From the NCBI GenBank assembly GCA_963971425.1, contig OZ020523.1, forward strand, positions 23,603,105 to 23,667,104: a stretch of DNA of 64,000 nucleotides, written 5' to 3'. Below, one piece after another: positions 1 through 42,769 of this stretch. The DNA comes from Bryoerythrophyllum caledonicum (lineage: Eukaryota > Streptophyta > Bryopsida > Pottiales > Pottiaceae). Position numbers and translations under genes: made by a program. The notes under the pieces are model-generated. The model was not told where the DNA came from and ran no database searches. It saw nothing but the letters and a program-made list of their open reading frames with translations. Numbering within the stretch: the stretch's first letter is position 1; the number at the start of each line of letters is the position of its first letter.

Positions 1-574
1 TTGTAAAATACGTATTAGCTGAATTTTAGAGCTCAGATAGAATCGCATGGAATGGTGTCTTGGTTGTGAGGAGAAATATTGATTACTGGTTAGGCGCGCT
101 AGAACGGATGAAGCAGAGAAGGTACAAGGCATAAATTCATGTTAATTGAATCTCGCGGCACCAATCTCATGTATCCAATAGAAACAAAGCAGATGTCATC
201 TGTCACGGTTGCACATAGTGACCAGGTCAAGAAGATCCGCCAGCAGCATAGAAATCATGAGTCGAAGGGTGCAGATACAGTTAAGTAAAAACAATATAGG
301 AGTGGAGGTTCTGCAAAGGTACGAAGTAAACTCCCTTGTTCGGTATGGTACTCGTGGGATGCTCATGTAGACTTGGAGACCAGACTGGAGGAAGAATTCA
401 ATAAGCTCAAAAGGATGATTGATAAATTATCATTGCATTGTCCTCGTACAAAAAATGTACTGCGTGCTACAATACCGCGAGTTCTAAGCATGATACAGTC
501 AAGAAGATAAGCATAACATGTGAACGTCGCAAGGCAATGAATCCAATAAAATATGATATATGCCACACTGTAGT
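1..574. other. Window margin, no recognised gene
   Basis: This stretch lies downstream of the methyltransferase gene stop codon. On the plus strand there are two short overlapping open stretches: one from the ATG at 139 to 288, and one from about 291 to 510 whose product is basic and possibly coiled-coil. Neither matches a family I recognise and no clear splice signals link them. The distal end of the methylase/transposase module, if it is a transposon, would be expected here or beyond the window edge. I found no terminal repeat matching the 18.3-19.9 kb side. Confidence 0.3.
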
Positions 575-2819
575 TCAAGGGCTGAGGTTACCATCCATAC
601 CACGACGGTTTTTCAATGATTTCTTAGCCTCCCCTAGCTTGGTCAGCGGCTTCAAGATAGCGTTGTATATGTCATTGTCTTCTTCGATGCCAAAGAAGTG
701 GCGCCCGGAAGCTCGGCACGCCAAAAGAGATGCCCCTGTAGAGGCATTCAAATCGACAACTATGTCTCCTGGCTTTGAACACATGTCAATTAGGATTTGG
801 AAGAAAATATCCGACTTCTCATGTGGTCTACGCCAAGGGTTTCCGCATTTGTCAGTGGATGGTTTTCCCACATAGTTAGTGAGAGTAAGGTACCTCATAG
901 GGTCCTCTGGAGTATTGGCCAACAATGGATCAACGTTCAACTTCAACGGTATTGGCAACCTGTCCCACTGCTTGTCCTTGAGCCGTCCGGTTTTTACTAA
1001 CAATACCGCTGAGAAATTGAATGTCTGAACAAGGCATCATTTTGATAGTTAGTCTTAATTTTGAGCCTATGTGATAACTGTCAAATAAGTATGTAGGATA
1101 GTCAATATATACCTTGCAATAACAAAGTAAAAAATCCTATGATATAAATAAATCCTAGAATGTCCATCCATTGACCATGTTCGGTTGCAAAGCTGTTAGT
1201 TAAAAAAATTATAACCAGAACTTGTTTGAAAACAAACAGGCACCTTGCAGTCATAGCAGTTTCCCTCGACAAGGATTCTAGATAATTGCAGCACATGGGT
1301 GAAGTGATTAACTTACCATCATACCCTCATAGGCTGGGTGCGTTAGGGGCTCGGACTGGTGAACTTGCCATTCACACTTAGTTTTCAGTTTGTATTTTAG
1401 AATCCAGTGCAGAATCTCGTGACTCAATCCCATGGGCATCAATATCAGAATAGCACCATCATCGTGGAGATAATCGTAGGTAAACTCGAACCGTGATGAG
1501 TACCAGTTTTTAAAGGAACCATCCAAAGAGTTCCACGGCGGTATGCGATCTCCAAAACCAGGAACAACCGTTCAAAAGGCTGGTCAATGATAACAAGGTC
1601 CGCTACTGGGAACGTGCCTGCCTTGCCGCGAAGAAAGGTCTCCACGCTTCCTCTTGCCTGTCATTGTTACAAAAATATTAACTCATTAGTAATGGAATTG
1701 ACATGGATTCACTCATTTAAAAAGAAATAGGGATATTGTTAGGAGTGTACCAAGGCAGCAAATTCTTCGAACGTCGTTGCCTCGCTCTCCAAGAAATCAC
1801 CGACAGAGTTGTTAATGACAAGTTTGTGGTATTTCACTCCTTCTTGAGCGCGTTGAAACAGAGAGGTCCGCAAAGTTGACAAGTAGCCACCCCCTATACT
1901 TCTAGTGACATGTGAATGGGATTTGGAAGACCTTGCTTCAGACTGAGCTCCGTCAATATGGACAGTCCGATCAGAGATTCCCCCATCTTTCTTGCCTCTC
2001 TTTGACGAGGCTCCTTGTTCATCTTCTGCACTGGCTGTTCGTTTGTTGCCCTTAGCGGGAAGATCTCTTGAAGTCGCAACAGCATTTGAAGGCCCTCTTG
2101 GACCACCTCTGGACTTGGGCTTTGCGGTCTTTCCGAGCGTGACATCGACATGAGCCCTTTGCTCCACATTATCTTGAGGAGGACCAGATTGGCGCTGGAA
2201 GGATGGCTCCACCGATCGCCTGTTCTCAATTTCATGTGGAGGAGTATCCAGTGGATCAATTTCCACGTACCAGTGGCAAGCCAGTAAGTGCTCTTCACTC
2301 CAATCACTCGATTGCTCAACCGTAAACATAGATTCCTCATTGTTGAGATCAAGCCACGACGCAAAGCAAGGATGTGCCTCAGGCACAAGTCCTTCCGCTT
2401 GTAAAATATTGGTCCAATATCTGCAAGCAAGAAGACTACAATAAGTAGCATGAGCTGAATATTATAGTAAGAAATCAAACTCGCTTGCTATGAATTTTCA
2501 GCATAGATATTTGAAATGGACAGGAACTCACCGGTAGATGAGGCGGTCCATGGCAGGTTCACCATGGGGCTGCTTTGGGCTCCCCCATTCCGCGGACTTT
2601 TGGATCTCCTTGTTGAGAATAGCTCGATTGAATGCATAATCCCATTGCCTCACTCGATTCGAGACAACATAGGCCTCGAACTTTATACTTGGTTTAATAT
2701 CCGTGAGTGCATAATCACTAGCAATAGCCCTGTAGAACTCCATAGAGTTCTCCTTCAGTTGATGCCAAAACACATACAACACGCAATTAAGCAATTATGC
2801 ACTTAGCCAAGTGCACTGG

Positions 2820-3640
2820 TTGCTGGTAGAAAGCTGCAAGTTATTTGCTCATAACTTAAAAAAAATCAAAATTTGGCAATAGTTTGTGGTTTCAAAGACA
2901 TATGTTGTTAGTTCTTTGGTGAAATAGCATATTAATCCAAGTCAATTATTTTCATACATTGTCACACATTTTCGGCCAAGGTACCAAAAACATTTCTACC
3001 TTTCTACAAAAAACTTTGAGATCTTTGTATGATTCACTTTTGATTTTTCCTACGGCATTATGTGATGTAAACCTTCTTATTGACCATTTGGATTCTCATT
3101 TAAAACAATATCAAGTTCACAAAAAAATATAACGTGAATTGAGAATTTTTGAACCTCCACTCATTGCACAATATTTTTGAATATGCTACACTCCTTTTCT
3201 ACCTTTAAAAATTGGTGCATAAGGAACTAACAACGTGCTTAATATATGGTAATTAATTGAGACCTTTTATAGTGCAAAAATTAGACACCAATTGAAGTCA
3301 AACTCAGCTGGTCCAGTATACGCAAGGAAGAAAATGAGCCTTTTCTCTACTTCAAACATTATAATCTTTCAATCCGTGCGGTCAAACTTCATGAAATTTT
3401 GTGAGTATAGTACTTAATAAGTCATAATTGAGATCCTACGGTTAAAACTACCAAAAAACTTCATTTTTTCTTCCTTGCTATTTGCACAAAAACAAGCATT
3501 TTAAACAATTTTTGGTTGAGATATTTTCAACATAATTTATGGACCAACGTACTTTGGGTATCAATAACAAGTGTATCACCAGCACGGTATGATTTCTTGG
3601 GCACCACTACCCGGATATCAATCAGGGTATCAATTTAGGG
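2820..3640 (+). repeat. Copy of dispersed AT-rich repeat family
   Basis: The stretch around 2940-3300 (phrases such as GACCATTTGGAT, CAAACCTCCACTC-like, GAATATGCTACAC and AAAAATTGGTG, in the same order) recurs at 32,150-32,520. Related segments occur at 31,430-31,690 and, on the opposite strand, at 53,080-53,340 and 61,420-61,560. No coding potential is seen. It is probably a non-autonomous transposon or decayed retroelement segment carried inside the 4-kb insertion. Confidence 0.6.
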
Positions 3641-3649
3641 TTTCGGGTT

Positions 3650-5650
3650 AGGGTTTTTGACTTGCGGGTATCAATCCTTTGCAACGTTGGGTAGTCCTAC
3701 GAGGGGTGTGCGCGCGCACACCCCTTGCAGTAGTTGTGAGGGAGGCTGTGATTGTGAGAGCCTAGGGTTTGGTAGAGGGAGACAATGGAGGTGTGGGAGA
3801 GATGGGCTTGTGAGGGCGGGAAGAGACGGGCTATGAGGGTGGAGAGAGAGGAGTTTTGAAGGAGAGGAATGGACGGAGTGTGAGAGAATGTGAAGGTGAG
3901 AGGGAGCTGGGGCGGCGTCTGAGGGTGAGAGGAGAATGTGAGGGGCGGCAGGCGTCCACCGTTTCGAGGCATCCAACAGCAGGGCACGATGAGCATCGCG
4001 CACAGTTGTGAGCAGGGCACGATGAGCATCGCGATGAGATGCGCGATGAGCAGCAGCGATGAGCGCGCGATGAGCATGCGCGATGAGCAGCTCGCACCGA
4101 TCCGAGGAGCTTGCACCGATCCGAGGAGCTTGCACCGATCCGAGGAGCTTGATGACGCAGAGAGTACCATGTGTGGGAAGGGTTCCTCGGGAAGACTCCT
4201 CCGCCGCGAACAGAAGCTGACGACCCATGAAAGGTGCGACCGCACGAGCTGCTCAGTACCCACGGGGGCTGACGATGTCACCTCCGGTTGGTTTGCCTGG
4301 TAGTGTGTGTCATCGACGTCAACTTCTGAGTCGGGCCTCGGGGCAACGCGACCCACTGTCCCGATTGGCGCCTGCCCTCCAAGGCCGTCCTTTTTAAGCC
4401 ATTCCGGGTGCTTTTCCCTGTCCCCGGAGCCGTCAAGATGCAGTTCGATCAACGAGATGCAGATCCCTGTGCATACGGCCTGTCTGCTTTTTTCAACTCA
4501 TGGGACTTTTGTCATTCTCCATCCGACGTGGATCCCACGTGGTAAGGACCTGGATCTGGGCCCCTCGGTGACGGCCCAAGCGTGTCGGCTTCGCCCAAGT
4601 ACATGGGTGCGTGGGCGCTCGTGTGCACGCATGCTGCATGGTTGAGGTGGAGGTCGCCTTTCACGCTCCACCTGCACAAGCGCTGCTACCAGAGTGTCTT
4701 CATAACATTCCGCGAAAGCGAAGCTGGGTTGTCTTTCAGTTGTGGGTTGCCGAGCCCAGTGTCCCGTGTGGTCATGGCTGTTGAAGTCATGCAAACCAAC
4801 CGCAGGAAGACCGACATCACGGAGTGGAGCGCAGGCGCCTTCCTGTCTCGACACACGCCTCTCCTGTCTCGACACACACGCCTCTCCTGTCTCCTTCCTT
4901 TGCTGTAAAGCTGCGCCCCACTCCTCATCGAGATTCCCTCCTTCGCAGAGATCTCCTTGTCTGCAGCTTCTCCTTAAGTCCACATAGATCTCCTTGTCTC
5001 TGTGCGAGCTCCTTAAACGTAGCTTGTCTGTGTCTGCATTGAGCTCCTTCCACGCACCTTGTCCGTGTCTGCAGTGAGCTCCTTCTACGCAGCTTTTCCG
5101 TATCTGCAGCGAGCTCCTTTTCCGTGTCTTTTCCTTGTTTGCAGAGATTCCTTCACGTGGAGGAGTGCCCTCACCTCTCCTTTCCTGAGAAAGTCCAAAC
5201 AGCTGCTCTTTCTTGTGCATGGTGACACGAGATTCCTTCTCCGCAGCTCTTGCTTGTCTGCAGAGAGTCAGTGTCATACTTTGTACTACATTCTCTCGAC
5301 AGGATTCCTTCTCTCCTCGACAGTGTCTCGACAGGAGATTCCTTCTCCGCAGCTCCGGTGCTTCTTCGCTTAAGAGCCCGCACTTCTCCTCTCGCGCGAG
5401 TCCAAACAACTACGAGGATTATCAGCTGCAGAATCCATGTTTATAACGCTTCCATAAATTGTCGTCATAGATCTCGTTCGGATGTGCTGGATGGAGGAAC
5501 ACCAGCATGCGGGGGTGTGCGCGCGCACACCTCTAGACTTTGGAACTCCATGGGATCGTCAAGGATCTCATGTGAACACGACTAGGATTTTTTAGTTTAG
5601 GGTTTGGGTTCCTTGTGGCGGCGGCTAGGGTTTGGATCTGTGGCGGCTAG
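3650..5650. repeat. GC-rich, internally repetitive block with GTGTGCGCGCGCACAC near both ends
   Basis: An exact 16-bp palindrome GTGTGCGCGCGCACAC lies at 3706-3721 and again at 5515-5530. Between them the sequence is far more GC-rich than its surroundings and strongly repetitive: CGATGAGC-type octamers around 3985-4090, a 19-bp unit (ACCGATCCGAGGAGCTTGC-like) three times at about 4085-4150, and a pyrimidine-rich repeat (variants of GATTCCTTCTCCGCAGCTC) from 4840 to 5390. A 30-bp phrase (CAGTGTCATACTYTGTACTA) occurs near 5268 and 5693. Long open frames in several phases here, including one of 303 codons at 5409-4498 on the minus strand, look like by-products of stop-poor repeats. I see no recognised domain. 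Confidence 0.55.
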
Positions 5651-5731
5651 GGTTGGGGTTACTGGGCTGATTTGTGTAGTTGTACCCACAGACTCAGTGT
5701 CATACTCTGTACTACACTCACGGCTCAGTAT

Positions 5732-5944
5732 ACTAAAATTGAGAATTAGTGTAACCTCACTAATTAATTGTAACTACTGAAAGTTTTTACTTTTGATGAA
5801 GGTTTTTACTTTGAGCTCAACTATTGATACTATTCAATGAGGGGAATCATTGTAAACATTGTTGGTAAAAACATTCATCACAAGTAAAAACTTATTAACA
5901 TTTTAGATCATTTACTGTGCTTAACACTAATTCTCAATTTTAGT
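5732..5944. repeat. Foldback (MITE-like) element, 213 bp
   Basis: A perfect 21-bp inverted repeat, ACTAAAATTGAGAATTAGTG plus T, lies at 5732-5752 and in reverse at 5924-5944. Homology continues inward in the two arms (AGTTTTTACTTKTGATGAAK at matching offsets), so about 85 bp of each arm can pair. There is no coding capacity. It is nested inside the 4-kb insertion, and the flanking duplication is unclear. Confidence 0.6.
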
Positions 5945-6064
5945 GTAGTTGATGTCTCCCATTATATGTAAACATTCAACTTGTTTTGAATTTGACAATT
6001 TGAACATATTATTTGGTGCCTTTTTGTGTATTGAGTTGCCTATTTCTGATTCAGCAATAAAACC

Positions 6065-6232
6065 ATGTCCGGGGCCAGCGGGTGGAGAAAGCGCAAGGTA
6101 TTTGGTGTACAGGCTGAAAGCAAGATTGGCATTCTTCAATCGGCAAAGGCTCACATACTACAACATGTTGCAATGCAAACCGAAGCTATTGATGACGACC
6201 GTTTGCAAGCAGCCCTAAATTCTAAGGAGTAG
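6065..6232 (+). CDS. Small ORF or terminal exon, 55 residues, unknown
   Basis: An ATG-to-TAG frame encodes 55 hydrophilic residues (begins MSGASGWRKRKVFGVQ, ends LQAALNSKE). It is preceded by a good splice-acceptor context (TTTCTGATTCAG at 6043-6054), so it may be the last exon of a gene belonging to the inserted 4-kb element. Its base composition is more gene-like than its neighbours. I do not recognise a family and cannot find a convincing upstream exon. Confidence 0.3.
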   Translation: MSGASGWRKRKVFGVQAESKIGILQSAKAHILQHVAMQTEAIDDDRLQAALNSKE

Positions 6233-6809
6233 ATAGTGTGCCTTTATGAGAGTATACTAGTTGTGTATGGTAATTGCTATATAGTGTATGTGTAAGAGTA
6301 GTATATTCTAAGAGTGATGTAAGACGTTATGTCATTAATCCTATAGAGTAAAGGTGTTTTTACTATTGGTGCTAAGTCCATTTGTAAAAGCATCTACATT
6401 TAGTTTCCACCATTGTATGCATTGTGTACTACGTTAGAATATCTTTTAATCAACTGTCAACCCTTGCACAAAGTATATTTTTTTGTGATTACACCTGTTT
6501 GAATACTATAGTCCTTCAAATCTATCTTTGAAATATTGTAAAACTATATTAAATACACATTTATCTAGTATTAACGAGGGGCCACCAAAAATTAGTTGAA
6601 AATGCCAAAAAATTGCTTCCAATATTAACAACCATGATTGTACATAATATTGTTGCAAAAGCTTATTTTTTTTTCTTTGAAAAACATTTTTTTTTCTTCG
6701 AAAAACATTTTTTTCTTCAATTTTTTCACTTTTGCTCGCAATGGCCGCCGTTGTACCTAAGTGCACTTTTATTTGGTGAGTGCAAAATTGCTTGATTGCG
6801 TGTTATACT

Positions 6810-8513
6810 TGTGGAGGTACGTGTTGAAGGTGTTGTCATTGAACAGGGCGAGGGGAAACTTCTTGAGCTTCCTGTTCTCTTTAGAGGAGTTCCAGATTCT
6901 CAGAATTTGCTCCTTTTCCGTCGAGGGTATACAAAAAGAAGCAAGATTCTGTAATTTCTCTGTGGTCATCTCTGGTGTCAAATTCGCAGACCAGTGCTTG
7001 GCAATCTGACAAATAGTATCATAAAAATTGTTAGGGAGAATAGTCATTAAAGATGTATACGTGAGACGTACATCAATTAATCTAATGACAAAGAACCATG
7101 GCTACATTCAATTCGTCCCTGCTCGGCACCGAACGGGTGATCATGCAAACCCACTGAAACCACATCCGCGGCTTAGTACTCAACAAAATACTGTTAGACA
7201 CAAAGTATCTTTCGACCCTTGAGGCCTGGTGGCAAAAGTGCCGTTCGGTGCAGAACACCCCCAGTCACCCTTGCTAGAAGTGGTCCCAGTTCGATGTTGC
7301 TCCCATGTTCGGTACAGAACAGCTGTGGAGACACTGAAGTTTTAATCGATGCCACGAGAATCATGTATTCACACCTCTAGGCCGAGTCATACCCTGATTA
7401 AAGTGCTGCCTTGGATTCTGATGTGTTACAATAGCAAATTCCTGAAGCTCCTCTAGTAACAGACTGTTCCATCACTTCCTGGCAGATGGAAATGATGTTA
7501 CAGATATACTAAAATTCCATGCCTGATAACTGCAGAATTTGCCCACACATCGTTCCTCTACGAATGCATGTGCCAACTCTGATAAATATTCCAGAGTAGC
7601 TGACTAGCTGTATACAAAAGACAACAACATGCCAAAAGGGAGAAACTCTGATACCTCTCAAATACTTCGTCCTCTAAAGGTGGTGAGCAGGCTCCAGGTT
7701 CACACTAGAGTCACTTAGGGAATAAGAAACCTTCAGAGTAAGCCACTAACCTCACAGCTCCGTCAGTTCATTCTTTAACACCCGATTTGAGCGTATACCG
7801 ATCAATACCTGGAGAAATTCAGAGGACTTGCCACACCAGCTCACTTCCAAATACCACTAAGCAAGACCATTTGTCGACCTCTCCTCAGCTCCCTCTCATT
7901 TACGTCAAGATTGAGCTCTCATGCTTTTGAGTTGAAAATAAATAATTTCAACATAGGTCACCACAACAATCTACTCCCAGGGCATGACCATCACTACAAG
8001 TTCACATCCGTCCGATAAAACTACACTCTCTACCAACACCGATGAGCAAGAACAGCACTCGCAAGCCTGAAGCTCTCGCACCAAATTCTAGCACCCTGAT
8101 TGAACCCGAGGTTTTAGAATAAAAAAAATAGACAATGCAAGGCCAACCAAGGGCCGAACAATGCAACCAACATATGAAATTATACTCCTATTGGCACCAG
8201 GTGCACAAACAAATGACTTGCTAGTTGTTGTGCTCAGAGGGGTGTTCGGGACAGAACACCCCTAGTTCGATATCCTGCTATGTCCTCGTTACCATGCAGA
8301 AAGTGGTGTTCGGCACAGAATACCATTAGTGCCATGAACGGCGTGGGGACCCCAGTCGTGGATAAGATAACCTCTTTCAAGCAGATCGAGTTCTAAGATA
8401 CTACGAAGAGAAAATGAATGCCCACAACATGATTACTTAAGTATATAATCTATATGGCGAACTCAGAGTACATTAAGAATATAATATCATGGACTGAAAT
8501 GATAGAACAATAC
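6810..8513. repeat. Intron 6 of the methylase gene with five palindrome copies (exon 7 part at 6810-7005)
   Basis: The 1.5-kb intron between exons 6 and 7 (8513-7006) carries copies of the module's 14-bp palindrome at 7121-7134 (GCTCGGCACCGAAC), 7243-7256 (GTTCGGTGCAGAAC), 7307-7320 (GTTCGGTACAGAAC), 8244-8257 (GTTCGGGACAGAAC) and 8308-8321 (GTTCGGCACAGAAT). Two pairs are exactly 64 bp apart, the same period as in the transposase intron. The rest of the intron has no recognisable content. Confidence 0.7.
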
Positions 8514-10405
8514 CTCGGTGAGGAATGATTTTCCATTTGCAGGATTCGAAATGGACAGGAACTTGGTAAACGCAGCAGACAAGCTCTTTCGCTTTGCTTC
8601 CATTGCGCCATTTATTGCTTGAAGCAAACCATCGGCTGTACGCCTACGTTGCGGTGTGTCTTCTTCATATCTCCTTTGACCTTCATCACCAGCCTCGGTG
8701 ATCTCTTGCTGCAAGACAAATTTGAGACATAGTTAATATACAAGAAATGAAATAAAGATTTTAGAAGTGTACATTGTAGAATGCATTGGATACTGCTTAC
8801 ACTGTGAATTAAGTCGAGGAACCTTGCTCTGGGAATCGGATACCACGGCCTTTTCTCCAAAGGTAACTCCTGTGCCTTGATAGCCGCACTCATCTCATCA
8901 GGAGCAAGTGAATCCCGAAATTGCTCAATAGGCAAAGATCCGAGTTTTTGAATTCGGTGAAGAGTATGGACTTGGTTTTGCTTCACATGCGAGTTTTCAT
9001 TCGATTTGTTGATGTCGTGCATAGCAGTTAGAACATCCGTCACGTCGTCCACTGTTCGGAGCACAATTGATCTCACCCTGAAGTGCCAATCATAATCATT
9101 TTTGTACGATTTCTTTATAAAATCATACCACGCTACCAGACGGTGGTTACCATCCCACACGTAAAAATATTTGTCTGATAGCGATGAAAGCTCCCTGTCA
9201 CGTTTCAAGAACTCCTCAAACTCCAAGTCTCTTTTCCGCCGAAGAGGACTCCATTTTCCTCGATCCTCTGCGGTAACCATCTTCAACTGTCCTTCAAAGT
9301 TTGTTGTTGAAACATAAAAAGCAGCAGCTCCATCGCGGTAGCCATGGACAAACTCTGCCTACATCTTGGTGATATCATTCTCGAGCGCTGGGCGTACCAC
9401 CTGCAACTTCCTCATTCTGCAGAGAGGTATGTCTATGTGAGATTTACCTCCTTCGAACATCTCCAGGCGCTTCAAGATTTGGATAGAGTTCACCCTGGTC
9501 TTTCGATGAGCGACAATGAGCTCATACTCTTGCGCCGAATCCAGTGCTGGTCCAGACATCTCCAATTCTCCTTCAAGAATTCCACCGTCGCCATCGTCCT
9601 CGTTGTGGTTGTGGACTTCAACTCTGTCGGGTGCATCGTCCTCCTCAAATTCGTTGTTTATCATGTCATGGTTGTCGCCATCTCCATCACGGCCACCATC
9701 GCCTTCCATTCCAGAGTTACTGCCGTCATCATCTATCATACCAGAACACGAAGATTAGATAGCTTAAATTAATGAGATATTACTCGTTCGCCATAGACTA
9801 CGGTAGAGGAGCTTTCAATAAAGTAGCCACAGTTGAAGTCAAGTAATGTGCATCGCAGTTGCATGTAAGTCATAATGTACATTGCTTTATTATAATAGTT
9901 ACATTACTATGATCATCAGCTCTCGGACTGTCGTCACCATCATCGTGGTTGGCTTCACTCTCCCCGTCATGACCTATGGGATCTGCACCAACAACTGAAA
10001 GTGAGTATCCTGGAGATAAGACATAGAAGAATGTAAGCATACATTTAAATCCACATTCAAATATAATTACCAATGATCCCTTGTGTTTGCTGCACAGCCT
10101 GAGCATCTTTGTCACCACCGAATAACATGTCTGCTACATCTGAAAACAAAAATCAATACACAATGAGGTGGAAAATAAATTCACAATTGACCACATGCAT
10201 GCGTTCGTCACAGAACACATCATCTTACATTCAGAACAATGCCTTGTGTGTAGACTACTGGAGCGATTCAAGTTGATTGACATACCGATTTCTCCTGGGA
10301 TGAGATCATCACTTCGGTGGAATTCCTCAGCCATTTTTCTTGCCTGTCCCTCTGCGAGCTAATTTGGACTTCCTATCTGTAATTAAAATTCTAGGTCCGT
10401 GAGTC

Positions 10406-11445
10406 GTTCGGCACAGAACATGGTGTGTAAGAAGCTAATGACTACTCACAATTCCCCTAAGTATTGTAAAATCCATAATATTCTCCAAATTTATGAGAAA
10501 AATTGCTTAATTCTTAAGAATCCAAATGAAATTTCCGATTAAATCAATACAAGATACCATGTTCGGTGCAGAACGACAATTCTATTCAAACATTCTTTAA
10601 AATCTAAGGCAGTAAAGCACCAAAGCAAAAACATATGTGTATGCACGTGCTTATCATCTAACTAAGTTAATAACATGAGGTTCCTAGAAATGCTGAATAA
10701 TTTGTCCTATGGACCCCTGTTCGGCACAGAACAACAATTACATATCATATAATACTAACAGTTAATCCACAAAATTTGCCTAGGTTACCCCTGTTCTGCA
10801 CAGAACACCATTAGTCACTAAAGTATAACAATCTCGATCTTCGACATATTCTACCCTGAAAATCTCTAATCGTTGCCGAACAAGTCACGTTTTAAATGAA
10901 CTAAACATTTTGAATCCAAATTCTGGCTTTGGACCCCTGTTCGGCAAGGGTACTAAATGGACTTTATCTAGCTCGGATTTCCCTGTTCGGCACAGAACAG
11001 CCATGCTAATCGAAATTGAAAAACATGCATCTCACTTTATCAAACCAATAGAGTGCCCTGCTTGGCACAGAACTCCAACTTCTAGTAAAATATATCAATC
11101 TTAGGTTTGTTCATTATCTACCAAAAGTACCGTTGTTTAGCACTGAAGATCAACCTCAAGTATTATAAATCACTCTTGACCTCGGATATTGTTAACCCAG
11201 AGTACCTCTGTTCGGCACATAACATCATATAATATCAAAACGTATTAATTTTGTAAACCCATAGTCTACCAAGGAATCCCCTGATCGGCACAAAACATAG
11301 TCTACTCTCAAATAAAAACGAACTTCATTTTGGTCATGCGCTACCAAGGATACCCCTGTTCGGCACAGAACTATCATTCAATCTCAAATCGATCTAACTT
11401 TGTGAACTCATAAGCTAGCCTGTATCCTCCTATTCGGTACAGAAC
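10406..11445. repeat. Degenerate ~75-bp-spaced palindrome array upstream of the methylase gene
   Basis: Copies of GTTCGGCACAGAAC or close variants start at 10406, 10561, 10719, 10793, 10939 (half), 10985, 11060, 11210, 11283, 11358 and 11432, with eroded copies near 10870 and 11132. Intervals are mostly 73-78 bp or twice that, so the array has a clear 75-bp register even though the spacers have diverged. The palindrome is often preceded by CCCCT. The array lies just 5' of the methylase start (10,334, minus strand), so it may be a binding platform for a module protein or a decayed satellite. Its function is not shown by the sequence. Confidence 0.75.
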
Positions 11446-11666
11446 ACCAACTAGGAAAGTCAACAGCACATCCATTGTGTTGGATTACGATCCCAAAAAG
11501 ATTGGCCATAACCTTAACCTTATCAACCTCATTGTCCCAAAACCACATCACCTAAACCGAACTATTCTTGAACAACAGATCTACACAAACGATGAAGTCA
11601 AGAATCCAACCTTGATCTGCTTACAACAATGTGGACATGGAACAAACTGCGCCCCTCAATCTGAAC

Positions 11667-11972
11667 CTAAATGACAACTTTGAATTTTGGTTTCATTACA
11701 AACCCAACAATGCGAAGTGAAACATAAATACATAGACCAGACTTACAAATCGAATTGCAAGCATCAAAATCACAAGAGTTCTCTAAAGTCATCATTTTGA
11801 AATGAGCAATCACCCACCCAATGATTACAAACAGCGCACACCAAAGAGACTTACGCTCATTGATGGCATGGGCGGATGCATAACCACGACCTTCTGCAAA
11901 CCATGGTACCTTGACGATATGCATCCCTATGGCTGCTTTCATCCACCAGATCGCATTAACGATAAAGGGCAA
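11667..11972 (-). CDS. Possible small membrane-protein ORF, uncertain
   Basis: A minus-strand frame of 101 codons contains a hydrophobic stretch (LWCALFVIIGWVIAHF). It lies between the small membrane-protein gene and the methylase gene. A strong donor-like GTAAGT occurs inside it near 11,850, so the real exon may be shorter, but no in-phase downstream exon is convincing. It could be a decayed paralogue of the 12.2-12.8 kb gene or chance. Confidence 0.2.
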   Translation of the reverse strand: MPFIVNAIWWMKAAIGMHIVKVPWFAEGRGYASAHAINERKSLWCALFVIIGWVIAHFKMMTLENSCDFDACNSICKSGLCIYVSLRIVGFVMKPKFKVVI

Positions 11973-12154
11973 TATGATATGGATTACTTTTGTTCAAATT
12001 ACATTCATTTATGGCAACATCAATGTCGCAATTCTATTTGCTCACTAGACTAGGCCAACAGTAGTTAATGTATCACCGATCTTATTATGTAGGATCAGGG
12101 TATCAAACTTGAGAGCTTAGCCTATTAGTGTAACGATACTTATCCTATGTAATT

Positions 12155-12771
12155 CTACTCCATCATGTTCTCTACATTGTGAAGCGCTTCATCGTCAAGC
12201 CCCTCATAAAATTCACAATACATGTGATATGATTTTTCATGGGTCCAAACCTCATCGGCTTCACTGAAGTGATCCTCATCATTCAAGGTGCCAGCGGATT
12301 TGTCCGATGAGACGTCTGATGGGACTGGCGCTCTTATATGAAGTCCCATATTCTGTCTCTCTCTCGGAACATCTCTAGTCCAAACTATAAAATATGTAAC
12401 AAAGACTGCCATAACCGCAACTAGTACAAGTGCCTCAGTTGACATCTCCACTAATATGTTAAAACTGAATGCTTTCTCTGGCTTCATCGGACTCTGGAAA
12501 AAGCACAAATGGCTGTAATTGTCATTTCTATATTCATATGAAACTAACAAATCTCTAGATGCAAATGTAGAAGTTAGAAATATTGCGTGTGGAAAAACGA
12601 TACCTCTTGAAATTGTCGCTCAGATGTAGCTAATCTTCGTCTGGAGTATGTCCTTGAGTAATAGTCACTTCCTGATTCATCCGCCTTTGGAGGTGTCCTC
12701 TCCTCACTCAAAGATCTCCCCACAGACTCTAGTAGTGCCTTTGCTCTTCTAACAGCTCTCGTCTCGACCAT
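12155..12771 (-). CDS. Two-exon gene for a small single-pass membrane protein
   Basis: Exon 1 is 12771-12604 (56 codons, phase 0) and exon 2 is 12493-12155. The splice sites (GAG|GTATCG and TTTTTCCAG|AGT) join in frame to give a 168-residue product. Exon 1 is basic and serine/arginine-rich (starts MVETRAVRRAKALLES). Exon 2 opens with a probable transmembrane helix (STEALVLVAVMAVFVTYFIVW) and ends with an acidic tail. I do not recognise a family. It reads in the same direction as the methylase gene and away from the transposase, and together they flank a 1.15-kb shared upstream region, so it may be the third protein of the module. Unlike its neighbours it shows no visible break. Confidence 0.55.
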
Positions 12772-13918
12772 AACTCAGGAACACATCATAAGAACTACTT
12801 GAAATGATTGTGAGAAGTACGTGACTTGACCAAACTTATAATGATGGGGAAGCGTCTTAGGACCGTCCGATTCTTCTAATTGGCTTAGTTGCCGTATTTA
12901 ATAATTGTTAGCTGTAACCATTCGAATTAAAGTAGGTCACATATTCGATCCTATGTATCCGCTGAAAAGTGATTTGCAAATTGGCTATTGTAATACCCTC
13001 ACATTGGATCTCAAACGCTTAGGCGGCTTGAGTAATTTTTAGGTATCTATTTGCATAATTTAAGAATACGAAGCCGTCAGAAAAGTATTCGCCTCTGACT
13101 CTAACAATTATGCTTTGTCCCAATTCTTGCTGGCGCACTATATACTGTAATGCACTTTTGGCCATTACTATCCAATTATACAGTCTGCTATGTAAAATAT
13201 ATAATTGACCTACGCCCTCGTATATCATATAAATTGTTATTAGTTATATAATTAACTTTTACCTTAATCATGACTTGTATAAGTTACATTAAGACATTTC
13301 CTTAGCATGTTGCCCTTCTCATTCCGATTATTATTTAAAGATAATTATTACATTATTTTAATTAATAATAATCCAGACTTATAATTATTATACATTATAT
13401 GATATATTTTATTTACTGTTCCATGGTCCAAGCATTTAATTGTCGTAATGTAACTGTTTAGTGATATATGTTCATAGCTGATGGTCGTTCTGTACAGAAC
13501 GCTATAAATCAAGTGACCTTAAACGTTTGCGTGTTTCAAGAATTTTAGAACCTTAAAGGCCCAATTTCGTTAAGGCACTCGTATTGCCCTTCAGGTTTGC
13601 ATCATCAGTGCCTTAAGCGAATCTGAAGGGCCACATTAGCTGTATATGTCAGCCATTCTGTGCCGAACGACGCTAATGGCTCTATTTTCGCAACAAAAAT
13701 TTTCGGCTAAAATATATGTCAGCCGTTCTGTGCCGAACAAGGCTGATGACTCTATTTTTGCTCAAATAAAGGTAACTATTATTCTGTTTTATTTGGCCAG
13801 ATCCCAACAACGAGTCTTCCATCAATTTTAAGATGGATCCCAATCTCTACATCATATATCGTACTAAGTATATAAGACATCAGTTCTAGTTGATTATACC
13901 ACTCTTTCTGATACAACC
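12772..13918. promoter_or_regulatory. Divergent intergenic region between the minus-strand genes and the transposase
   Basis: This 1.15-kb AT-rich region separates the start of the membrane-protein gene from the transposase ATG at 13919. It carries the palindrome at 13487-13500 (GTTCTGTACAGAAC), 13655-13668 and 13725-13738, the last two within a 70-bp direct duplication. A bidirectional promoter is the natural inference. I cannot point to a certain TATA box. A minus-strand open stretch at 13228-13019 has no recognisable product. Confidence 0.5.
13642..13763 (+). repeat. 70-bp direct duplication carrying the palindrome
   Basis: ATATGTCAGCC(A/G)TTCTGTGCCGAAC followed by a GCT(A/G)ATG(G/A)CTCTATTTT(C/T)GC tail occurs at about 13645 and again 70 bp downstream at about 13715. 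Both copies lie 180-280 bp upstream of the transposase start codon, so they are candidate promoter elements. Confidence 0.65.
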
Positions 13919-16900
13919 ATGGCTAGCCAAGTAGTATCGTTCAGGCTCTTGACTTCTTCGATTCCTTTCATTCTTCTTGTTGATGACACATGCTTTGTTA
14001 GTGTTGATGAGAGGTTGTTGTGTCTTAAGTTTCAGTTACATGAGACCTCTTTAATAGTGGAGAAGGAGGAGTTGGGAGCTGATGGAGTGGTTCTCAGGAC
14101 TATCTATCAGAAACCAGACCTTATAGATGGCAGGACAGCTTACACGCTTCGTGCAGGTAGCTATACTATCATAGGAGGGTTTCCCACTCTTGATATGTCT
14201 CAATCTTCTACTCTCACTCCTCGGTCTATAGCTATGTTTGAGCGACGAGGTCGTGATTATCTCAAGCGGGCATTACCAACTGTTAAAGAGTCTCCCGAGA
14301 ATACTATCAACTTGTTGAGTTCTGATGATGAAGATGATGATGATGACATAGCGATGCAGACATTTCATTTCAGTGCAGATGGAACAAGTGATCAGAAAGG
14401 ACTCATCAGTGAATCCTCTGACGCTATTGCTGACGACTCATTTGTGGTTTCTGAGACGCCTTCAAGGAATATAGTTTCAGAGTCCTTCTCTCAGGACACA
14501 CCATGCTCGGCATCTGTACAACGTGGAGTCAGTTGTCCAGTAGAATCTCAGACCTCTATGCCAGTAAAGTCGGAATCTACTGATGTGACTGCTTCAGTTG
14601 AGATCAAGTCTTCAAAACCGTCTGTGGCAGATACCACAGAGGCATCCACATTAAGCATCTACGACTTGATTGTTGCCCTTGGTAATCAAGGATCCTCGAA
14701 GAGTATTTTGAAATCTGCGGATTTGTCGTCCTTTTCCCATTTGAAGGTGAAGTACCTACCTGTTCAATACAATGGGAATGTCATTTTTGAGTTGCCACCT
14801 CTTCCTTGTGTCAAGGAAGGAGGAGCAGGAATGCTTGAAGGTATGGATCGACGAAGTGATGGGCATGCTTGGACGGAGATTGCAACAACCAACATCTCAT
14901 ATCGAAATTCGGAGCTCTCATTCAAGTACGTGAAGTGTTTAGGACATCTTCGATGTTTGAATCCTACATGTCCTCATCTGATCCGTAATGGCGACTATAA
15001 CGACATGTACTGGGAAGGTGCCACCCCTGAGATTTTGACACCTGGACCAACACCTCTTCTACCAAAGAGGTGTTCTGTCCTCTGCCAATTCTGCAGAGTT
15101 GCCCCCGCTTGTCTGAAGTTGTGCACGTGTAGGATGTTTTATATTGTTTCTAAAAATCCTTGCATGTCGAGGGCTGCTGTTCACATAGGAACACATGATC
15201 ATCCAGTCGCTAATGGAGAATATAGAGAGGCATTAGATCTAATCCGCGAGGAGATTCTGACCCAGGTGGCCCGGACACCAACTTCTAAGGTTTCGGCAAT
15301 AGGAATGGCAGTAGGTCGGGAGCTTCTACTCAAACGCCTCGTTGATGTGAGTGGCGACGGCCAGAAGCTTACGGAGGCAGAAATATCCCAGGTGTTTGAC
15401 AAATGGGCAAAGCTTAGCACTCCAAGCATCCGTAATATGATTGCAGAGGCTAGGCGCTTTTGTGGCGAGGGCGGATACATTGACAACATTCTGAAGTTGA
15501 AGAAGGCTTCAACTTACGATTATGTACATGATAGTGTTTTCCCGGGATAGGGGAGTGACTTAGTGTACCTATTCAAGATGTCGACTTGTGGCGTAGGAAG
15601 CGGTGTTGGTCTTGTGAAGAGAATGCAACCTGGAGGAGACCTTGAAAACGAGTGGGTCATGTTTGACCATGTCAAGAGAGTGAAGGAGTGGACGACCCTC
15701 GAGATCCATGTCTATGACCCTGATTATTGCAAGGTCATGACGATTGCGGTTTGTGACATGCAGTCCGAGACAACAGAAGCGCAAGAACGAATGTGGTTGT
15801 CAATGCTGAATGTTTTGGAAAAGCATGGGGTCACAAATGTGAACTTTAAAGGCTTCATGGCGGATTCGGCTCTAGCGAACTTCAATGCCGTGAGATCCTT
15901 ATTTGGATCAGGAAACCCCAAAGAGCCGATGGAAGGGAAGGAGCGTACATGCCAATTCCATTGGACAATGGCGTTAGATCGTCACACAAAGCAACTTATC
16001 AAGCTAGAGCTCCAACAAGTCTACTTGAAGTTGTGCCAAGATTATCAAAAATCTCGGAGCAAATCCGATGCTGATACTGCTTTGGCAGCCATCAAGGCTT
16101 GGTGGTTTTCATCTGGTCCAGTCGCTGAGAGCTCTTTAAAAGAGCTCCACGACTGGATAAATTTTTGGCATTTTCGCTACCATCAATGGGGCTCACACAT
16201 CTCTGAGGTATGAGTTCAAAATCCTAAATTCTATCTGATTTTGAAATCTGCTTCTTCAATTATGTAGAAGTTGGCGGTTTGCACATAAAACCTGTGATGT
16301 GATCTTGGATCAGCAAGGGTGTTCTGTATAGAACACCCTCTTCTCGTCCATTTTTGAGGTCCATGTTTTGGGAAGGTATATGGTGTTCTGTACAGAACAC
16401 CCTCTCCTCGTCCATTTTGGAGGTCCATGTTTTGGCCCCTTAGAGGGTGTTCTGTGCAGAACGTTGTGTTGCCTTTCTTTTCTCGTAAGCCATTTTGCAC
16501 GAGAAGAGGGTGTTCTATACAGATCACTCGGTTCTATGGAATCCAGTTGCTCCATATATTTGTCACTTGAGGGTGTTCTGTACAGAACACCCTCTTCTTG
16601 TGCATTCTAGATTTTCAGTTTTCTTTCTGCTGAATCAGTAGTTTTTCCTAGTCGATAGGGTGACATTCTTTTTAAGTTCATATATTATGGAAATGCATTT
16701 AAGTTTTAAAATGAAGAGTATTTATGCTTCTTAATGAATTTCGACTTTTACATTTTATCATCACTTTAGAGCATGATATATTTTCCACCCTCTATAGCAG
16801 TGTGTTAGCATACTGTGATAATAACATTAATATTATTGTATTTGATTGCAGTTTATCTCATTTGAAGAAGAGGCTTCTATGCCAACATGCAATTTGTCTG

Positions 16901-18333
16901 AGACGGTACATAACAAGTGGCTGCAAGCATCTGGGAATGATATGGTTGATCTTTACAACGCGACACTTGATGACTACTGCAGAGCCGCATTGCAGTCAAC
17001 ACAGTATCACAACTATCTCAAGGGGCGTCTTGGTGGACAAGGGCCATCTCGAAATGTGTTGGCGCTTCGTTTAGCTACTCGTAAGGGTAATCTTGTAAAA
17101 GTGGCTGAAATTGTTGGTCACATTTCAGGTGAGGCGGGTTTGAATTCTAGGTTGCCTCATCTTGAAGGTGAGAACGTTTTTGGTTCAGCAAAGAGGAAGT
17201 TAGATTTGGCTCCTGGAGATGATGATGATTCACATCGTCATGACCGAGTGAATTTTACTCTTCCCAAGCTGGGGAAAAATATGACGCCTGCACAGAGCCG
17301 CTCGTTCAAACAGAATTCCACCACAAGCAATCCTTCACTCACTGAAGGCTCTGTAGAAGGACGTGTGGTTACTCGCAACGGCCTTCCAATTTGTGAGACT
17401 CCTTGTTACAATCCCATGGACTGGCGGATTGAACGGATTTCACCCCAATCCAAGGACCAATGCAGAGGCTATAACAGTGAAGGCAAGAGATGCAATGCGG
17501 TGATGGCAAAGTATCGAAGGGCTACAGCTGCACCAACATTTACTGGCCTTCAAAGGAAATTCAAATCTCAAGATACGGAGCAGAAGCAGTTCTGGTTTTG
17601 TCCCTCCAAACTGGATACTTGCGTGATAGGGAGTCGATCCAAGTATGTTATGCATTATCCTACTGTTCCTAATGTCTGGCCTATTAAGCTTGGGACTAAT
17701 TTATCACAAACAGAGGTCGATGGATTGGAATCTGCAGGTTTCATACTGGAGGAGGATTTCCTTGCCCCATCTAAGGAGATTGAAGGTGGTAAGGAGGATG
17801 TCCATCCGGCAACGATGGAAAAAGGAAAGTCATCTGATGCCTTTCATTGGAACAATCCTATCTACGCTCCATCTGAGCCTGTTGATGGTCCCAGACCTCC
17901 AAAGTCATCAGGAGATTACCGTCCCACGATGAGAGATGGTAAGAAATTTAAGAATGTGTCTGAACCTTCACCTGAGCATGTTGCCAAATTTGTCAAATCA
18001 ATTACCACCGACTGCTCTGTGGTAAAATATGTGAAGGTTCCGTACCCAGGCTATGGAGTTGTTTACACTATCCACACTCCTGGTTCCATTGCCAAGAATC
18101 AACTTTATGAGGTTACCATTGGAGATTTTCCTGCCTGTACATGCCTTGATTTTATTACTATGAAGACTACAGCCCTTGGTCGTGGCCAGAAAAAGTGGAT
18201 CCTCTGCAAGCACCTTTATTGTCTTCTACAACGATACATGGGATGTACGGTGGACGATAAGTTTATTCACCGGCCAGCTTGGACATTCAATGAAGTTGGC
18301 ATGCTTTTAGACAGATGTACTTGGGAGATCTAA
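13919..18333 (+). pseudogene. MULE-like transposase with GCM/WRKY-like and SWIM fingers (in-frame TAG)
   Basis: Two exons, 13919-16207 and 16852-18333, join in phase 0 (TCTGAG|GTATGA; TTTGATTGCAG|TTT), giving about 1,256 codons. Order: a novel N-terminus, an acidic linker (~140-150), a Cys/His finger resembling FLYWCH/WRKY-GCM domains (CLGHLRCLNPTCPH to VHIGTHDHPV, ~340-430), a MULE-type catalytic core (GFMADSALANFNAVRSLFG then CQFHW, ~640-680), and a C-terminal SWIM finger (DFPACTCLDF then CKHLYCLL). Expected role: cut-and-paste DNA transposition in the nucleus. A TAG at 15548-15550 interrupts the frame just before the catalytic core, and the same frame resumes immediately, so this is a recent nonsense change, readthrough or a sequencing error. 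It is divergent from the methylase gene and shares palindrome motifs with it. Confidence 0.75.
16321..16588. repeat. 63-65-bp tandem palindrome repeats in the transposase intron
   Basis: Five palindromes start at 16321 (GTTCTGTATAGAAC), 16384 (GTTCTGTACAGAAC), 16449 (GTTCTGTGCAGAAC), 16512 (GTTCTATACAGATC) and 16575 (GTTCTGTACAGAAC), spaced 63, 65, 63 and 63 bp. Flanks such as ACCCTCTYCTCGTCCATTTT and GAGGTCCATGTTTTGG are also repeated. The array lies wholly within the 644-bp intron (16208-16851). Confidence 0.85.
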
Positions 18334-19920
18334 TTGCCCTTTTCATTTATAATAACCTTTATCTTGAGAGTACCCTAAGGATGCCTTAGTGCTATAAGTA
18401 TAGTGTTGGAATGTCTTAGAGAATGATGCGTATGTTTCATTTTCCATTCTAGTATTCATTGGCGATTAGTATGGATTTGATTGGATCTGTGCCATATAAA
18501 TAAGCATCCTTCATTGTTTATTGTAAGCCTTTTATAATCTATATATCTCCTTATTTACTGTTAGCCTCTTATAATCTATATATCTTCTTATTTTTTGTAA
18601 GCCTTTTATAATCTATGTATCTTATTTTATATCCTGTATATTCATGCCTACCACCTTTTTTGTGTACGCTTGGAAACCTGACCCTTGAAATAATGGATGA
18701 AAATCATTCGGAGCAAATTTTCAGTCATCGTTGAAGCAAATTTTCATTAGGTCGTATTTACTATAATTAAACAAACTTCATGAGCAATGAGCGTAAAAAG
18801 TACGCTCATGGCTTACAGCTCATTGCTCACTGCTTATGTCATAGCCTCCCTCCCCAGTGGTGATATGCTTATTACTCAATGATTTATGATTTGTGGTGTG
18901 TTCTACCATCAAATAAAAATGTAATGTCATTATTTCCATAAAAAAAAATCCTTACACTGTCACGACTAGGTTCTGTGTGGCAGGGTTTTTTTATTTATAT
19001 TTTTTTCATGTTTTGGAACATCATTCATCATGTTGGAGCCTATATTCATCCACATCTTAGATAAAATTCACTTACATTCATAAACTATTTTCATCTTGAT
19101 TAAGAGTTTTTTACCCACTAATTTATGTTTTAATGCAATTTATTTTATTCCGTTTTTTTCCCCCAAATTTTCCTCTTTTTAAAGGGCATTTATATACCAA
19201 AAATTTACCATAATGAGTTGAATCATGTAAAACTTGAAGGAGGTGCCCAATGGTCGCTAAAATGGCTAAAATTAGTTGAAAATCCATATTAAAAACCTAA
19301 CTATCACTACTCTAATAATGATATTTGGTGTTATCCATACTAACTTCTTTTGGTGAATATTTTTACCTAGTACAACAAACACGTCCATATTCGTAAGTGC
19401 AGAGTACCTTCATGACCACAGTTGATAAAAAAAAAATCATAAAAAAAGAAGTTATAGCATGTTTAAGATAATTAGTGTAACTTACTAAATATCATTATCA
19501 ATGTTGTACATAGAAAAAATGAAAAAAATTAATGTCCAATATTAAAATTATTTGGCCACCTTCAAAGATGATATCCACGGGTATCACAAAGATACACCAT
19601 GGATATTGCAAGATATCATCTAGGAATCTCCACATATTACAAGCTCGAATAGCTCACCTAATATTTCTCCTCTATTGATTTTGGAAATACCGATGGTGCC
19701 ATTTCCTGCAATTCTCTTTGTTCACATGACTCAATGTTCACATGACTCAATGTTCACATGACTCAGATGAAAGTCACATTATAACCACCGTCTAAATCTT
19801 GGGAGTTGTGACTGTTCAAAAATGTATGGTCATGACTGAGCCATAATCAACATCTTAAATGACACATTTCAGGCAACACTGTCTGTGTTTACAAAGACTA
19901 AATGAAGAGGAGATAGATTT
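18334..19920. other. AT-rich intergenic region with a 38-bp repeat
   Basis: Downstream of the transposase stop, three copies of a ~38-bp unit (GTAAGCCTTTTATAATCTAT and variants) lie at about 18515-18630. The remainder is AT-rich with homopolymer runs and a triplicated ATGTTCACATGACTCA at 19,725-19,762. I see no gene and no terminal inverted repeat that would mark the module boundary. Confidence 0.45.
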
Positions 19921-20726: not shown

Positions 20727-21670
20727 GTGTTCTTTTTGAGCTTTGTCCAATAATTTCAAATATAATATCGAATATTGTCAATTAAATCCTAAACACCAAA
20801 TTAATATATAGAAATTTATATAATCTATAACGAAATAAAATTATGGTTCTTATAACATGACATGATCTTTAATACACATCTAGTAGAGAATTTCTAATAT
20901 TCTATAACCATTTTATTATAAATGAATGGTCAAAGTGAGTTGAAAAAAAGAACCTTTGCTCTAGGAGAGATATTTAATGGTTACAACTTACCTTTAAATG
21001 TGTTGATTTATAGCAGGCATTTGAATACACCACGCGCGTGTGTCCACCCAAGTTTCGAAAGAATGTATCATCCTTAGCAAATGAAAGACCTTGTTCTGCA
21101 AGCTCAGAAGGGAGTTCTACCAAAAGCCGCTTCCCTAATGATTTATAGTGAAGAAGGTGGTGCATGTGGGTATAGGTTTTCTAGAAGGAAATAACCAAAC
21201 ACTTATGCTAGCCTCCCTTTGCAACCTGGAATTATTCTATTTCTTTTAACCCCTCAAAGATCGGGCCTTATGCTTCACCAAAACCACCCCAAAACTGCCA
21301 CTTTGAGATGAGATATTATTAGACTTATTCAAAAAATGATCTACTATTTTCAACCGTTGGATCTTCAAGCTAACTACTATGAGAAGACTTGTGGTTTAGT
21401 AAGTCCTGCAATGACTTGGGGTTTAGAAAGTGGCCCTCTACTTAGGAAAGAAATTTTATTTTTTATGTAGAGAAATAATTGTTGGATCTAAAATCCAAAT
21501 AGGTAATAGAATTAGTATGACTTATGACATTTTTTCATAAAAGTAAAATCCTTAATTTCTATGCGTTTTTAAGTAAAAACAATGGAGGTTGCCAAGAACT
21601 TTACTTCACTACTACCCGCCTCACAAAAACCCAATAGTCAAGTTTACAATAGCACTATTCCTCTCTATTG
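20727..21670. other. Intergenic, with one exon-like minus-strand stretch
   Basis: On the minus strand 21165-20992 encodes about 58 residues (MHHLLHYKSLGKRLLVELP at the start) and ends with a strong donor (AAAG|GTAAG). I cannot link it to other exons or to a family. The rest shows nothing I can identify up to the TA that precedes the Tc1 element. Confidence 0.3.
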
Positions 21671-21672
21671 TA

Positions 21673-22622
21673 CAGTCGGGTGACATTCAAATTGGCATTT
21701 GGGCAATTCCAGGGATGGTGTCCCACACTGCTGCCAACTTTGACGCCCTCCATAGGGCTGAAAAATTGTTCTTTTACCCTGAAATTTTGGGAACATCATC
21801 ACCTCTATGTTGAAAACATGCATACCAAATTTCAAGTCCAGAGGACTTATAAAACAAAAGATATTAAAAATTAACCACCATGGGGTAGCTGTGAGAAAAG
21901 TTTCTCAACCGCCAACTTTGACACCATCCCAAGGATTGAGGAAATTTTTTTTGCCCATGGAATTTTTGGAGTGAGAACACCTTTATGTTGATTACATGTG
22001 TGGAAATTTTCAAGTCCAAAAAATGCACCAAAAAAATCACATCCCAAATCTACCAACATGTGTAATTGTGAGAAAAAATGGGAAAAACCATTTTACTACT
22101 TCCAACTTTGACACCCTCCCTAGGATTGAGGGTTTGTTATTTCAACATGAAATTTTTGACACATGGTAACCTTTATGTTAATAACATGTGGAAAAATTTT
22201 CAAGGCCAAAAAATGTATTCAAAAGAAGATATTCAAAATCTACTAACATGGGGGTTAGTTGTGAGAAAAGTTTCACAGCTGCCCACTTTGACACCCTCCC
22301 AAGAATTCAAAAAAATTTATTTGTCCATGAAATTTTGGGTATGAAGTCACCTTCACGTCAAATACAAGTGTGGAAAATTTCAAAATCCAAAAGATTTACA
22401 CAAAAAAACATATACCAAGTCTACCAACATGTATTGTTGTGACAAACAAAGGGGAAAGTTTACCACTACTTCCAACTTCAACACCCTTCCTAGGATTGAG
22501 TTTTTGTTGATACATAATGAAATTTTGGCCACAAGATCATCTCTATATTGGTAACATATGAGATAGATTTCAAAGCCAAAAGATGTATATACAAAAAAAA
22601 ATTATTCCATATCTACCAATGT
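21673..22622 (+). repeat. Left TIR, 950 bp, five alternating ~185-bp units
   Basis: After a 61-bp unique end, diverged units starting with CCAACTTTGAC (or a variant) begin at 21734, 21912, 22102, 22282 and 22472, at intervals of 178, 190, 180 and 190 bp. Units 1 and 3 end alike (GTGAGAAAAGTTTC...) and units 2 and 4 end alike (GGAAA...CCA/TACTACTT), so the array is a two-unit A-B-A-B-A higher-order repeat. Such subterminal repeats are plausible transposase-binding sites. Confidence 0.85.
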
Positions 22623-25403: not shown

Positions 25404-25405
25404 TA

Positions 25406-42760: not shown

Positions 42761-42769
42761 CCTTCTCAG

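Follow-up and report, generated by a model that had tools for sequence, protein, structure and literature searches.

Background

What does a moss transposon gain from a gene that resembles a prokaryote-type DNA amino-methyltransferase? The question is raised by a locus of Bryoerythrophyllum caledonicum, in which a methylase-like gene and a transposase gene lie head to head. The window analysed here is a 64-kb stretch of contig OZ020523.1, part of the same 437-Mb host genome that we searched. An earlier note, made from the letters of the window, had proposed that the methylase-like gene, a small membrane-protein gene and a divergent transposase gene together form one transposon or a domesticated derivative. 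Here we report that the methylase-like gene and the transposase belong to one Mutator-superfamily transposon, present in eight close copies, and that its noncoding parts carry a near-private palindrome which the methylase-like protein may recognize.

Results

A transposon family with common ends and target duplications

A genome search with transposase exon 1 returned eight copies (95-100% identity), located at the eight places where the N6_N4_Mtase profile PF01555 was significant (profile search; 150 of 235 candidates scored). The methylase-like exon that encodes a DGNHR motif is also present at these places (96-100% identity), and in all eight copies transposase exon 1 is divergent from the methylase-like exon. 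Comparison of the fetched loci revealed the same left end, GGGGAATGCTAGAGC, and right end, CCTCCCTC, in every copy; the last 30 bases are identical in six copies, with one difference in each of the other two. Target duplications of 9-11 bp flank all eight insertions, differing in sequence from locus to locus and containing one mismatch in two cases. A duplication of 8-11 bp is expected for the Mutator (MULE/IS256) superfamily. Duplications of such size are described for Mutator-superfamily elements (PMC6446971). The terminal inverted repeat is short and imperfect (36 bp, 81%, E 0.008) and begins about 14 bp inside the ends. Five less disturbed copies measure 18.7-19.7 kb and three are longer, with extra sequence not found in the others; the basic form measures about 19 kb.

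The methylase-like gene and the transposase are thus parts of one element, a DNA transposon of the Mutator superfamily that is of autonomous type and about 19 kb long. The earlier note had suggested looking for genome copies with the same gene order, common outer ends and duplications, and eight such copies exist; neither of the contrary outcomes it named, copies in which the genes never co-occur or boundaries that part them, was found. Its single-transposon proposal holds for these two genes, which lie within common ends and 9-11 bp duplications in all eight copies and are paired in distant relatives as well, and fails for the membrane-protein reading frame as a separate gene. The alternative that the locus is a domesticated host locus has the divergent gene arrangement in its favour and nothing further; it is refuted by the existence of eight copies that are dispersed, flanked by target duplications and in part decayed, and we give it practically no credence.

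The element is also larger than the 575-18333 first assigned to it. An exact match in the flanking DNA that we fetched places the left end of the window copy about 7,960 bases to the left of window position 1, and the whole copy comprises 26,815 bp including nested inserts. No convincing terminal repeats were found within the window alone because the left end lies outside it. The outline of the copy in the window is as follows:

1..18852, no strand: window part of the transposon copy, delimited by ends common to seven other copies
18853..18862, no strand: right target-site duplication CCCAGTGGTG; the left copy, GCCAGTGGTG, is outside the window, with 9 of 10 bases identical
7078..7944, no strand: stretch of roughly 870 bp containing three palindromes, shared by three of the eight copies

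Gene models and decay of the window copy

From left to right, the element consists of a left-end gene, then, on the minus strand, the methylase-like gene and, head to head with the latter, a two-exon transposase. In the window the last two genes are represented by the following parts:

12604..12771, minus: methylase exon 1 with the start codon, beginning MVETRAVRRAKALLE; matches the N-terminus of Ceratodon protein P0001 and ends at a GT donor
10286..10349, minus: exon 2, supported by AG/GT borders and frame
10071..10139, minus: exon 3
9908..10009, minus: exon 4, acidic region
8801..9732, minus: exon 5, the DGNHR exon, with an in-frame TAG at 9359-9361 where seven other copies have no stop
8514..8708, minus: exon 6
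6805..7005, minus: exon 7, first part, cut by an insertion; contiguous with the second part in 7/7 other copies
2777..6804, no strand: transposable element nested in exon 7, with inverted-repeat ends AACACGCAAT and GCGTGTTG and a duplicated TAT; absent from the seven other copies
2532..2773, minus: exon 7, second part, likewise contiguous with the first in 7/7 other copies
1751..2420, minus: exon 8, linker
1317..1657, minus: exon 9, motif IV (DQPF), with a 1-nt deletion after the motif that appears as one gap against each of the seven copies
575..1024, minus: exon 10, motif I (DLNASTG) and stop codon; PF01555 matches here
13919..16207, plus: transposase exon 1, found by search, model and alignment, with a D..D..CQFHW core and an in-frame TAG at 15548-15550
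16852..18333, plus: transposase exon 2, identified by motif reading, with a candidate catalytic E in NLSET, a SWIM-like CxC...CxH and the stop codon

The methylase-like gene had been given a start at 10334, 3.6 kb from the transposase. Ceratodon P0001 begins with the MVETRAVRRAKALLE words that are found identically at window position 12771, and with the real exon 1 at 12771-12604 the two starts face each other across about 1.1 kb. The ten minus-strand exons described previously do exist, although in the window copy they do not form an open frame: an in-frame TAG, a 1-nt deletion and the nested insertion interrupt them. The nested element (4.03 kb) has inverted ends of about 41 nt that are 80% identical, and a piece of it, 2913-3315, is repeated at 32125-32530 with 80% identity. 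Over the family, the methylase frame of 1,144 codons is free of internal stops and frameshifts in three of eight copies, two of which have one non-AG acceptor; the transposase frame of 1,256 codons is free of them in a single copy.

The divergent two-exon MULE (Mutator-like element)-type transposase was correctly recognized from the start, and we classify it as IS256/MULE-type within the Mutator superfamily. It has 18 protein relatives at 36-48% identity, and its in-frame TAG stands where the aligned relatives have glutamine. Transposases of the superfamily have a DDE core with C/DxxH and, in many plant members, a SWIM zinc finger; the catalytic E and the SWIM-like motif of exon 2 are candidate assignments. 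A structural model of exon 1 predicts an N-terminal ubiquitin/DIX-like fold and a zinc domain resembling WRKY/GCM, which is a DNA-binding fold. With two stops, one 1-nt deletion and a 4-kb insertion in its genes, the window copy is a decayed, dead member of the family.

A methyltransferase fold with altered catalytic motifs

Exon 10 alone scores 30.7 bits against PF01555 (cut-off 26.7), and exons 9 and 10, joined over the frame break with an X, score 39.8 bits (E 6.3e-10); two Ceratodon homologues match at 30.4 and 35 bits. The match spans nearly the whole domain and supports a methyltransferase fold for the predicted protein, in which motif IV precedes motif I, as in CcrM, with VWDGNHR upstream. 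The amino-methyltransferase domain in CcrM order read in the earlier note therefore passes the curated cut-off, and the failed profile match that it had listed as an objection did not occur.

The catalytic tetrad of N6_N4 enzymes is usually (D/N/S)PP(Y/F/W), and the S-adenosylmethionine-binding motif I is usually FxGxG. The moss tetrad departs from this consensus: it is DQPF in all eight copies, DTPF and DQPY in Ceratodon, and DMPN and DLKD (the latter read by eye) in two distant elements described below. Motif I, which lacks the usual FxGxG glycines, is DLNASTG in six of the eight copies and DLNASIG in one, the window copy being out of frame in the scripted reading; relatives have DLSASTG, DLAASTG, DCNASTG and DTTATVG. 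Enzymatic activity is doubtful, because the tetrad is DQPF here and DMPN or DLKD in the two distant elements; catalysis is not a common need of the family and may have been lost.

These motifs bear directly on the possibility that the element marks itself, an active amino-methyltransferase writing N4-methylcytosine (4mC) or N6-methyladenine (6mA) on it, for example at its palindromes, for protection, guidance of the transposase or marking of copies. The nearly complete PF01555 match would be expected of such an enzyme, as would the retention in the moss lineage of the D, the P and the aromatic residue of the tetrad (DQPF in 8/8; DTPF and DQPY in Ceratodon) and a ratio of nonsynonymous to synonymous substitution rates (dN/dS) below 1 for the methylase; Marchantia reportedly employs a 4mC enzyme, DN4MT1, that came from bacteria (PMC8885841). 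Against it stand the Q or T at the second tetrad position, a motif I of DLNASTG instead of FxGxG, and the DMPN and DLKD of the distant elements, which indicate that catalysis is not a family-wide requirement. On balance we regard self-marking as unlikely, and see in it the chief bold alternative to our favoured interpretation.

The methylase-like protein has its closest named relatives in the moss Ceratodon purpureus, namely two hypothetical proteins with 60% and 55% identity. A further profile search yielded 58 proteins at E <= 0.01, most of which cover the DGNHR exon alone; three are from Ceratodon, with locus tags that point to chromosome 7 and to the U and V sex chromosomes. The DGNHR sequence, earlier called ParB-like, does lie upstream of the PF01555 region and agrees with the GxxR form, described as the P motif of ParB folds (PMC12704722), whereas the ParB attribution gained no support from profiles, a Protein Data Bank (PDB) search or modelling. 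Pfam and NCBIfam searches of 42 homologues matched no ParB family, none was named among the 25 PHROGs shown, and the PDB sequence search of the DGNHR region gave none either; two of the 42 homologues had a weak DndB match (best E 0.025), and the AlphaFold model of the region (predicted local distance difference test score, pLDDT, 51) was too unreliable to use and had no meaningful structural match. In one of the distant elements (L037) the DGNHR region is the best-aligned part (E 4e-49), a conservation that fits a binding or nucleotide role.

No convincing bacterial or phage donor of the gene emerged, the matches being weak and in most cases to the C-terminal region of phage DNA methylases. 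Scans confined to viral contigs revealed no relative of the methylase or transposase and no match to the palindrome.

An old association and signs of constraint

Could the methylase-like gene be a bystander, a host or bacterial gene captured and carried passively? Mutator elements are described as tending to pick up host gene fragments (PMC6446971), which lends this explanation some plausibility. We surveyed 59 transposase loci (65 rows minus six short N-terminal rows of loci already counted), which span 38-100% identity, 51 of them between 38 and 48%. They were compared with 128 DGNHR exons, short C-terminal rows having been dropped, and with 150 of the more than 150 exon-10 matches. A DGNHR exon lies within 30 kb of at least 25 of the 59 loci, divergent at 24 and on the same strand at one, and a divergent exon 10 lies within 25 kb of at least 29, with no near match in another orientation among those listed. 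At least 39 of the 59 have one or other divergent exon within 25 kb, a joint count taken from shortened lists (50 exon-10 and 25 DGNHR rows), from which 29 and 24 are obtained just as from the full lists; the chance expectation is about 0.02 per locus. Twenty loci have no methylase exon nearby among the matches listed. In two distant elements, read over 5 kb from the DGNHR exon, the main parts of the methylase follow in unchanged order with identities of 24-41%; the poorest-matching piece of one element has an E value of only 0.18.

The association of the two genes is old, and this moss Mutator lineage has kept a gene of N6/N4-methyltransferase fold over long divergence. Over all pairs of copies, dN/dS is about 0.48 for the methylase and about 0.50 for the transposase. 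Among changes found in two or more copies, 13 of 24 (methylase) and 16 of 30 (transposase) are nonsynonymous, compared with 104 of 149 and 118 of 165 among single-copy changes (raw counts); the lower nonsynonymous share among shared changes is as expected if the genes were constrained while mobile and decayed afterwards. A signature of methylation decay was looked for among the single-copy changes and set aside: C>T or G>A makes up 94 of the 149 and 103 of the 165, a modest excess in raw counts. Passive carriage is very improbable given the recurrence of the divergent arrangement beside transposases of 38-48% identity, the frame of 1,144 codons uninterrupted in three of eight copies, a dN/dS similar to that of the transposase, and the existence of a Ceratodon homologue.

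A near-private palindrome in the noncoding parts

Allowing up to two mismatches to GTTCTGTGCCGAAC or to its symmetrical form GTTCTGTACAGAAC, we count 24 sites in the window, all at 7121-16588 and none in an exon, which fall into four groups:

7121..8321, no strand: methylase intron 6, five sites
10203..11445, no strand: methylase introns 1-2, 11 sites, several spaced at 73-75 bp
13487..13738, no strand: divergent intergenic region, three sites found by motif scan
16316..16593, no strand: transposase intron, five sites in a tandem repeat of about 64 bp whose palindromes extend up to GAGGGTGTTCTGTACAGAACACCCTC

At three mismatches or fewer on both strands there are 33 matches in the window, against a mean of 4.15 in shuffled windows, and one of the 33 (at 48901) lies outside the element. 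The exact 14-mer occurs 47 times in the genome; by comparison of coordinates, 45 of these occurrences are inside the eight copies. A reversed control pattern has no genome-wide occurrence. The two exact palindromes outside the copies are at C14:10611900 and C14:21553222, and could be relics of ancient family members. There are 27-33 sites per copy, distributed over four zones (the gap between left gene and methylase, the methylase introns, the common upstream region and the transposase intron), and not one of the 234 sites is in an exon although coding sequence makes up 24-45% of the copies. The two distant elements lack such a repeated palindrome within the 5 kb read. Written as TGTTC(N6)GAACA, the motif has ends that may resemble those of the bacterial parS site.

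Such sites might instead be bound by the transposase, the methylase-like protein acting as an accessory factor in transposition. The predicted WRKY/GCM-like zinc domain of the transposase would provide a DNA-binding fold for this, and the sites are present in four noncoding zones of every copy. However, none of the eight copies has a site within 2.2 kb of either end, and the terminal repeats are of a different sequence from the palindrome, so that this explanation too seems rather improbable to us.

An intronic reading frame and a left-end gene

The small membrane-protein gene formerly placed between the methylase-like gene and the transposase is not situated there, and we rejected it as an independent gene. 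The frame lies inside methylase intron 1:

12155..12445, minus: open reading frame (ORF) of 96 codons for a membrane protein, open in 8/8 copies

An in-phase acceptor upstream of it (giving 12155-12619) was found in six copies and was not found by the script in two; five of the six with the acceptor allow a full 168-residue reading together with exon 1. The ORF could thus be an alternative last exon, joined to methylase exon 1 to encode a membrane protein of 168 residues. Selection on it is not demonstrated, since its codon variants are seven nonsynonymous to two synonymous.

The third gene of the element, outside the window at the left end, is a plus-strand ORF of 398 codons, intact in four of eight copies and interrupted in the window copy. 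By eye, its middle part looks like a coiled coil and its C-terminus has cysteines in a RING-like arrangement; a Pfam scan gave no match near the cut-off.

Other features in the window

A Tc1/mariner-like element occupies 21669-25407 and encodes a transposase ORF at 23450-24463 (HTH_Tnp_Tc3_2 and DDE_3); it is probably recent, because its 954-bp inverted repeats are 99% identical. Another element of about 10.4 kb, at 33413-43790, is bounded by 377-bp inverted repeats (96% identical) and contains long ORFs at 34830-36969 (plus) and 38363-41024 (minus). Four pieces of it were scanned, with one weak Pfam match below the cut-off, and one of its ORFs resembles, by eye, a second MULE-type transposase. 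Exons of a CDK5RAP3-like host gene lie at 51445-52491.

Discussion

With somewhat more confidence than doubt, we favour the interpretation that this is one Mutator transposon whose methylase-like protein binds the private palindromes and thereby alters the chromatin or methylation of the element's own copies. The palindromes would be bound by the methylase-like protein or, with lower probability, by a different protein of the element; binding would change the chromatin or methylation state of the copies; and the most likely effect, by analogy with VANC proteins acting on short repeated VANDAL motifs, would be relief of silencing. Binding and recruitment appear more likely than self-methylation, because the tetrad is altered (DQPF) and is lost in two distant elements.

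In VANDAL21, VANC21 is described as binding YAGTATTAY repeats, and its presence as accompanied by loss of methylation there (PMC5735166). The moss element resembles the VANDAL elements of that description in being a multi-gene MULE with a short motif amassed in introns and intergenic parts, partly in tandem and rare elsewhere (45 of 47 exact sites inside the copies and 0 of 234 in exons in our case). It differs in that its candidate reader is a protein of methyltransferase fold and its motif a 14-bp palindrome; Pfam scans of the element's proteins, made without direct comparison to VANC sequences, revealed no domain in common with VANC. A VANC-like role played by a different protein appears to be the most likely arrangement, because several genes in one Mutator element, combined with a private motif in introns and spacers, make up the anatomy of VANDAL21.

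Other transposons are described as encoding proteins related to DNA methyltransferases: C5-methylases in retrotransposons of dinoflagellates and charophytes (PMC5890265), and, in the mariner elements of large viruses, a C5-methylase together with a methyltransferase of another type (PMC3627910). The moss case differs from these in having an N6/N4-type fold in a land-plant Mutator-superfamily element. The 4mC methyltransferases of Marchantia and bdelloid rotifers share with it the presence of a prokaryote-type amino-methyltransferase in a eukaryote; they are described as host enzymes (PMC8885841). Phage and bacterial fusions of ParB-fold and N6_N4 domains are similar in carrying a GxxR-type motif such as DGNHR before PF01555, a domain listed among those more frequent in phage ParB-fold proteins (PMC12704722), whereas the moss region has no ParB profile match, long extra regions and altered catalytic motifs. 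In the open literature searched we came across no Mutator-superfamily element described as having an N6/N4-type gene, or a methylase in mosses.

A bolder proposal, which we put forward tentatively and with more doubt than confidence, is that a large moss Mutator lineage has recruited a prokaryote-type amino-methyltransferase for self-recognition: the protein would read near-private palindromes, and in some lineages maybe methylate them (4mC/6mA), so that the plant transposon would have devised an epigenetic code of its own for self and non-self. If the protein reads the palindrome, it would be an equivalent of the VANDAL/VANC system that evolved independently, and a naturally occurring epigenome editor with sequence specificity. 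Should it still methylate, moss genomes would harbour a transposon-borne supply of 4mC or 6mA, and this would bear on the disputed reports of these modifications in plants and on the origin of host enzymes such as the 4mC enzyme of Marchantia.

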